Part shown: positions 42,837 through 44,625 of the stretch, piece by piece
Position numbering within the stretch: the stretch's first letter is position 1
How the letters are laid out: each line of letters opens with the position of its first letter
Assembly: GCA_947477565.1 (NCBI GenBank)
Contig: CANJUR010000002.1
Coordinates: forward strand, 124,001 to 188,000
Origin: Deltaproteobacteria bacterium
GTDB taxonomy: Bacteria > Myxococcota_A > Polyangia > Polyangiales > Ga0077539
Reading direction: 5' to 3'
Length of the DNA: 64,000 nt
Program-made: the position numbers and the translations under genes
Notes under the pieces: model-generated
Told to the model about the DNA's origin: nothing
Seen by the model: the letters and a program-made list of their open reading frames with translations, nothing else
Databases searched by the model: none

Positions 42837-43094
42837 TCAGCGACGATCGGCGGCGCTTGCGATGGGGATCACCACGTCGCGCTCTTCTGCGGATGGGGTT
42901 TCCATTTCGGCTGAAGCGCGTGCCACGGAGAGGACCTTCATGTCCGGATGCTGGGTGATCGCATCTCGACTGGCCTGCGCGGCGGTGCGGGTTTCGATAA
43001 AGATCGTGATCGGGGCTGCGCCGAGGTCGCGCAGCGGGCGCAAGACGACGGCGAACCGACGAGCCCAGACCCCGGAAACCTTGTTGCGGCTCAT
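42837..43094 (-). CDS. Hypothetical 85-aa protein
   Basis: Short ORF abutting a convergent stop; downstream of the 6S RNA terminator. Confidence 0.35.
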   Translation of the reverse strand: MSRNKVSGVWARRFAVVLRPLRDLGAAPITIFIETRTAAQASRDAITQHPDMKVLSVARASAEMETPSAEERDVVIPIASAADRR

Positions 43095-43163: not shown

Positions 43164-43200
43164 GAAAGAAAAGGCGACGACCTCGTTGGAGATCGTCGCC
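43164..43200 (-). terminator. Intrinsic terminator of 6S RNA
   Basis: Minus-strand GGCGACGATCTCCAACGAGGTCGTCGCCTTTTCTTTC: stable GC stem followed by a T-rich tract. Confidence 0.85.
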
Positions 43201-43356
43201 CTGGAAAGTGTCCGTACCGCTTAGACCGTGGGAGCGTAGTGAACCCCTTGGACACGCCAAGGTGGGAGTCGGGTATCGCGACTTAAGGCTTCCCGGTGAA
43301 GAATCCGGGCCTGCACACCGCCACGAGGTTGACCCCCGAGTTCGTGAATAAAGCGG
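43164..43356 (-). ncRNA. ssrS: 6S RNA (mature portion approx. 43215-43356; remainder is terminator trailer)
   Basis: Minus-strand CCGCTTTATTCACGAACTCGGGGGTCAACCTCGTGGCGGTGTGCAGGCCCGGATTCTTCACCGGGAAGCCTTAAGTCGCGATACCCGACTCCCACCTTGGCGTGTCCAAGGGGTTCACTACGCTCCCACGGTCTAAGCGG. Closing stem CCGCTT/AAGCGG, apical CCCGG/CCGGG followed by AAGCCUUAA, and CACCUUGG...CCAAGGGGUUCA resemble E. coli 6S (CCGAGAAGCCUUAAAACUGCGACGACACAUUCACCUUGAACCAAGGGUUCA). Confidence 0.85.
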
Positions 43357-43357
43357 G

Positions 43358-43365
43358 ATTCTATA
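43358..43365 (-). promoter_or_regulatory. Candidate sigma-70 -10 box for 6S RNA
   Basis: Minus-strand TATAGAAT just upstream of the predicted 5' end CCCGCTTTA; no strong -35 seen. Confidence 0.55.
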
Positions 43366-43483
43366 CGCATCCTGCACCTGACCAGCAGAGGGACAAAGGC
43401 ACCATGACCTCGCTCGCGGCAATGTTCAAGCTCGGGCAAAAAAGTTCATGGTGTGCTGTGCGCGCGACCGAAGATTTGCGGTG

Positions 43484-44509
43484 CTATCGGGTCGGGTGAG
43501 GCAACTGCACTGCTTCTGGGGACCACTCGCGCTCGCGGGCGGAAATGAGGTCCGGCTCGCGGTCGTTGACCATCCACTCGACCTCGGAGCGCACGTCCTG
43601 GTCCGTGGGCGGCCAGTGTCCGTACCGCGGCGACTCCCCGGGACCGGAGAAGTCCGTCCAGAACGCCCCACCCTCTCTCGCGTCGCGGGTGTCGAGGTGC
43701 ACGAACACGCTGTTGGGATAGTACCCAACGCCTGCGTCGGGCATTGTTCGGGCGTAGTCGCGAACGTCTTCGTGGCGCACTCCGCGAAGCCGTAGGTCGA
43801 GGGCTCGCGCGTGGGCGTGTCGGCTGGCGCTCTCACCCGGGCGATACCCGGAAATGATCTCCGCGGTGCGCCCAGGGAAGCGGTCGAACAGTCCCTGCAT
43901 CAGTTGGATGAGCCGCGGGTGCAGAACGCGCGCGTTGCGAGAGAGCATGATGATGGGGTCGTGCGTGAGGCGATCGCGCTCGATGCTCGGCGAGGGCGCA
44001 CGGAGGCGGGCGCGGGCGCGAGCGCGGGGGGCAGTCTCGTCGGCCAGGTTGAGGCCCGCCGCGGGGGCCACACGACGGAGTGTGCGGATGGCCGCGTCGA
44101 CGTCGAACTCGGTGAAGCGGCCGGGCTGCGCGAGGAGCGAGACCGCCGCGAGCGCCGCGATGGTGGGACGCCCGGTGCAGTCCGTCAGCGGTCCCGTCCA
44201 GGTGGGCATCTCGCCGTTGCGCAGACGGCGGACGGTCACCACCGGGCGGAGACAGAGACGGGCGTTGCGCACTCCACGGATGGACTCGTCGGAGGCTGCC
44301 GAAGCGCCACGCCGCGCGCGCACTTCGACGCGGGGAAGGATGACCTCGTCGATCGCGCTTTGCGCTGCTGCGAGCGCCAGGCGACCGGGCCCGACGGGCC
44401 GTGCGGTGGTCGCGTTGGGGCCAGCGCCCGGACGCGGCTGGGCGGACGCAACAGACGACGCGCAGAGCGTGAGGGCGGCGAACATGCAACGGAGCAGCGC
44501 GCAGGGCAT
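43484..44509 (-). CDS. DUF882/YcbK-like murein peptidase (M15-type)
   Basis: ISGYRPGESASRHAHARALDLRLRGV...VGYYPNSVFVHLDTRD. Confidence 0.78.
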   Translation of the reverse strand: MPCALLRCMFAALTLCASSVASAQPRPGAGPNATTARPVGPGRLALAAAQSAIDEVILPRVEVRARRGASAASDESIRGVRNARLCLRPVVTVRRLRNGEMPTWTGPLTDCTGRPTIAALAAVSLLAQPGRFTEFDVDAAIRTLRRVAPAAGLNLADETAPRARARARLRAPSPSIERDRLTHDPIIMLSRNARVLHPRLIQLMQGLFDRFPGRTAEIISGYRPGESASRHAHARALDLRLRGVRHEDVRDYARTMPDAGVGYYPNSVFVHLDTRDAREGGAFWTDFSGPGESPRYGHWPPTDQDVRSEVEWMVNDREPDLISAREREWSPEAVQLPHPTR

Positions 44510-44625
44510 GACGCATGGCGGTGCCACGCGAAGACCGGCGCGGGCAAGTTCCCGTCGGCGAAGGGCCGTGGATTTTTACGAAAGGAGGTAAGGCGGGGAA
44601 GGGGCGGGAGCCGTGAGGCGAGCGA

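Follow-up and report, generated by a model that had tools for sequence, protein, structure and literature searches.

The closest described system is the 6S RNA family (Rfam RF00013), represented by E. coli ssrS and B. subtilis 6S-1. In other bacteria, this small RNA associates with RNA polymerase and lowers transcription during starvation. PMC12005410 describes 6S RNA as an open-promoter mimic, which binds RNA polymerase holoenzyme and is freed by the synthesis of a product RNA (pRNA). A first-pass annotation of the 64-kb stretch of DNA analysed here (the window) had assigned a 6S RNA gene to its minus strand, and had proposed the Rfam covariance model as a check. We compared the complete window with all 4227 families in Rfam. 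RF00013 gave the sole match at gathering level, located at 43394-43210 on the minus strand and spanning model positions 1-187 of 187, with a score of 53.8 bits (gathering cut-off 46.4, E-value 6.5e-8). The same model found its targets in the control genomes of E. coli, B. subtilis, C. vibrioides and S. elongatus, and a genome-wide search identified one copy, at the position of the window. The sequence blocks quoted in the annotation, CCCGG-AUUCUUCA-CCGGGAAGCCUUAA and CACCUUGG...CCAAGGGGUUCA, are present on the minus strand.

Homologues were gathered from related genomes, and a held-out model (R2) was built from an alignment (A2) of sequences of the same order, with the window's own family left out. 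R2 matched along its full length (1-190 of 190) to the same 185 nt on the minus strand, with 122.1 bits and an E-value of 4.6e-31, where the E-values of purpose-built models are rough and the bit score is unaffected. It agreed with RF00013 on both ends of the RNA, and no second R2 match was found in the 64 kb. The E-values of the two models place the 6S identity far beyond chance. The features of the locus are summarized in Table 1.

Table 1. Features of the 6S RNA locus and its neighbours (window coordinates).
Feature	Coordinates	Strand	Basis
6S RNA (SsrS) body, 185 nt	43210..43394	-	RF00013 and held-out model R2
Closing stem, 5' strand, GUCC..CUGCU, partner 43221-43210	43384..43394	-	Covariation, MFE fold
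Closing stem, 3' strand, AGCGG-UAC-GGAC	43210..43221	-	Covariation, MFE fold
Inner closing-stem helix, 5' strand GAAUC, partner GGUUC 43245-43241	43357..43361	-	Consensus pairing
Central bubble, 5' strand; predicted pRNA template, start at RNA nt U43-U45 (43352-43350)	43338..43354	-	RF00013 alignment, low local confidence
Hairpin of the 3' central bubble, CCUUGG..CCAAGG	43246..43262	-	Consensus helix 9
Internal stem and apical arm: GGGGGUC/GACUCCC, UCGUGGC/GUCGCGA, CCCGG/CCGGG	43264..43337	-	Covariation
Likely sigma70-type promoter, TTGAAC-17 nt-CATGGT, 6 nt before RNA start	43401..43429	-	Positional conservation
Intrinsic terminator after the RNA, 14-pair hairpin then TTTTCTTTC	43164..43202	-	Sequence and fold
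DUF882/peptidase M15 gene, upstream neighbour, outside the RNA gene	43484..44527	-	PF05951 40.3 bits, PF08291
85-aa ORF, downstream neighbour	42837..43094	-	Congener counterparts

The Rfam score of the window RNA is modest, only a little above the cut-off, which would be compatible with a distinct polymerase-binding RNA or another structured RNA that merely resembles 6S. One such RNA is Ms1, which is structurally related to 6S and binds the core enzyme, according to PMC9130861. However, RF00013 alone reached the gathering level, a permissive scan of the window revealed no competing Rfam family of note, and the match covers the entire model; we consider an Ms1-like RNA or another 6S look-alike exceedingly improbable. 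Rfam match, held-out model, covariation and near-universal presence in relatives all support the 6S gene that had been proposed, and none of the tests run gave evidence contradicting this identity. The locus is thus almost certainly a canonical 6S (SsrS) RNA gene of a Myxococcota-type bacterium, as judged from sequence comparison.

To describe the structure, we counted double-sided changes in two alignments. The model-fitted alignment of 30 homologues contained 46 pairs with 93.2% of cells paired, and 189 double-sided changes, compared to 59 ± 6.5 changes and 78.6% pairing in shuffles. Such changes were seen at 27 of the 46 pairs, exceeding every shuffle and slid control, and sliding the partners by 1-3 columns lowered the pairing to 33-47%. 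Since a model-fitted alignment is biased towards structure by construction, the figures from a plain MAFFT alignment (n = 27) are cleaner: the 46 pairs are formed in 89.5% of cells (79.6% in shuffles), with 128 double-sided changes (42.6 in shuffles). The consensus structure was derived with the aligned sequences in view, which favours the structure; the held-out search was free of the window sequence.

The strongest covariation was found in the apical helix, with double-sided changes in 7/7 pairs. In the closing stem, the outermost helix (GUCC 43394-43391 with GGAC 43213-43210) is paired in 98% of cells and shows changes on both sides at 4/4 pairs, and the second helix (CUGCU 43388-43384 with AGCGG 43221-43217) is paired in 96%. 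The inner GAAUC/GGUUC helix is paired in 95% of cells among the 30 homologues, where only one side changes, and the minimum free energy (MFE) fold lengthens it to GAAUCCC/GGGGUUC. Helix 9, the hairpin on the 3' side of the central bubble, is paired in 92.5% of cells and forms also in the fold of a shorter transcript. On the corrected ends, the MFE structure is a closed rod. Covariation, the held-out model and the MFE fold all support this rod shape, with its closing stem, large central bubble and apical arm with a terminal loop. The folding-energy z-score was -1.4 for the RNA alone, which is not exceptional, and -2.7 for the originally annotated span with the terminator; single-sequence folding energy is weak evidence either way, and no conclusion rests on it.

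These results revise the boundaries of the gene. The annotated span, 43365-43164, comprised part of the RNA together with its 3' terminator, whereas Rfam and the held-out model agree on an RNA at 43394-43210 followed by the terminator. The 5' end had been placed at about 43349-43365; the true start at 43394 is about 30-45 nt further upstream. The TATAGAAT box read as a -10 element does exist at 43365-43358. But it is not a promoter, because it occupies nt 30-37 within the RNA, where the GAAUC half forms a conserved strand that pairs with GGUUC in 95% of cells. The proposed CCGCUU/AAGCGG closing stem is a mis-pairing, as AGCGG pairs with the 5' CUGCU (43388-43384).

A shorter 6S RNA would have its -10 element at TATAGAAT, start near 43350 and be closed by CCGCUU/AAGCGG. 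TATAGAAT is indeed -10-like, and the CCGCUU/AAGCGG stem appears when 43356-43164 is folded alone, that is, only with the first 38 nt removed. However, both models reach 43394, the outermost helix covaries across the order, TATAGAAT overlaps a paired strand kept as GAAUC in distant relatives, and we saw no TTGACA-like -35 element upstream of it at an appropriate spacing. There is hardly any chance that the shorter RNA is correct; its start, -10 box and closing stem are ruled out by the covariation and by the agreement of the two models on 43394.

The 6S RNA starting at 43394 has a likely promoter of its own. The strict promoter scan of the window did not find it, and the call rests on positional conservation in place of that scan. 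Over 30 loci, the best agreement with the -35 and -10 elements averaged 7.2 of 12, compared to 4.95 ± 0.19 for shuffled upstream sequence, and in 21 of these loci TTGAC or TTGAA precedes the RNA by 34-39 nt. In the window itself, the -10 element (CATGGT) is a weak one. Three loci of one genus (g4: L012, L021, L023) are without a TTGAC-type -35 element at the usual distance and carry CTTGC...CAGAGTGA slightly further upstream, which suggests a shifted start or a different promoter in that genus.

At the other end, the strong hairpin and T-tract described in the annotation were found as described: 14 pairs within 43202-43164, with the hairpin at 43202-43171 and then a T-rich tract. By inspection, hairpins of differing sequence directly follow the RNA in most relatives. 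Transcription would begin at or near 43394 from the sigma70-type promoter and stop close to 43164, at the intrinsic terminator. The primary transcript would then be about 230 nt long, and may be shortened to a 6S body of 185 nt.

The distribution of the gene was examined in relatives. A lineage model matched 36 of 37, including all 30 good-quality genomes (completeness of 90% or more, contamination of 5% or less), and nine of the matched genomes had contributed no sequence to the model. The sole relative without a match is a genome that is 64% complete. RF00013 matched 31 of the 37 at an E-value of 0.001, 21 of them above the gathering cut-off. The remark that 6S genes are easily missed in this group is in part apt, with regard to the Rfam cut-off, which passes just 21 of the 36 and misses over a third of the order's 6S genes; the lineage model finds them. 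Class-wide, the lineage model matched 89 of 95 genomes, and RF00013 matched 84 (71 above the cut-off). In a sample of the phylum, about 55-60% of genomes were matched with either model. No sampled genome of families f35, f39 and f48 gave a 6S match with either one, where 6S has either been lost or diverged too far for both models.

Some genomes gave more than one match. G050, G057, G063, G069, G094 (family f19), G056 and G097 have two separate 6S matches each, with different scores and mostly on different contigs. These are possibly 6S paralogues as in Bacillus, with contamination or assembly error as alternatives. Two equal-scoring matches at locus L005 (G022:C83) point in opposite directions and mirror each other around the midpoint of a contig of 11,122 bases, and this looks like a palindromic assembly artefact.

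As annotated, the 6S gene lies behind the peptidase gene, between the DUF882/M15 gene and the 85-aa ORF. The ORF has counterparts at the same position in three congeners (46-60% identity) and no Pfam match. The named congeners are metagenome-assembled Myxococcales/Myxococcaceae and a delta proteobacterium. A peptidase homologue adjoins 6S in the congeners and, among the other family members examined, in all but G006, where it is about 3 kb away; near 6S in other families of the order, none was seen. Further upstream, genes for ATP synthase subunits c and a (PF00137, PF00119; 44629-46671, minus strand) precede the DUF882 peptidase gene, and this ATP synthase-peptidase order is kept in congeners.

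Alternatively, the region could code for a small protein or be a 3' UTR of the peptidase gene. Minus-strand ORFs such as those of 72 aa and 214 aa exist mechanically, and the peptidase gene directly precedes the region in the same orientation. But congeners differ in length by two bases with stops in several frames, which rules out the coding reading, the conservation follows base pairs rather than codons, and 6S occurs without an adjoining peptidase gene in other families of the order. A small protein or a 3' UTR accordingly has next to no probability.

The sequence, structure and conservation of the 6S gene are direct observations; its transcription, polymerase binding and pRNA synthesis we infer from family membership. 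By homology, the RNA, a closed rod whose central bubble is asymmetric, would imitate an open promoter, bind the housekeeping RNA polymerase holoenzyme and repress sigma70-type promoters in stationary phase. It would be released once the polymerase has used the bubble as template for a short pRNA. In the Rfam alignment, the start of the E. coli pRNA falls close to nt U43 of the RNA, at low local confidence. A pRNA of the window RNA is predicted to have its 5' end near 5'-A(A)GCGGGAUUC, and would read 5'-AGCGGGAUUC or 5'-AAGCGGGAUUC from U43 or U44, with GG at positions 4/5 or 5/6. GG at such positions has been described for other pRNAs (PMC8414754).

This study adds a well-delimited 6S gene to a group where 6S experiments seem scarce; four papers that mention both 6S RNA and Myxococcus-type organisms carry neither term in title or abstract. 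A lineage-specific 6S, whose distinct pRNA template GAAUCCCGCUUU and conserved coupling to a cell-wall peptidase gene would link the control of polymerase to remodelling of the envelope in the family, is very unlikely. The biology of the gene is otherwise standard, and it is a real, ordinary 6S with corrected ends.

Compared to the 6S RNAs of its own order and class, the window copy shares the structure, the promoter position and, mostly, a following terminator. It is about 91% identical to the 6S of three congeners, and differs from the wider group by a few substitutions and a bubble that is two bases shorter, with no other notable difference. With the RF00013 6S RNAs of E. coli and B. subtilis, it has in common the full-length match, size, closing stem, apical arm, central bubble with a 3' hairpin, and the conserved GCCCGG...CCGGGAAGCCU block. 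In contrast to these, its upstream neighbour is a DUF882/M15 peptidase gene, whereas the neighbour of E. coli ssrS is ygfA, the 5-formyl-THF cyclo-ligase gene. The window copy is also directly followed by an intrinsic terminator, and its predicted pRNA-template sequence (GAAUCCCGCUUU) differs.
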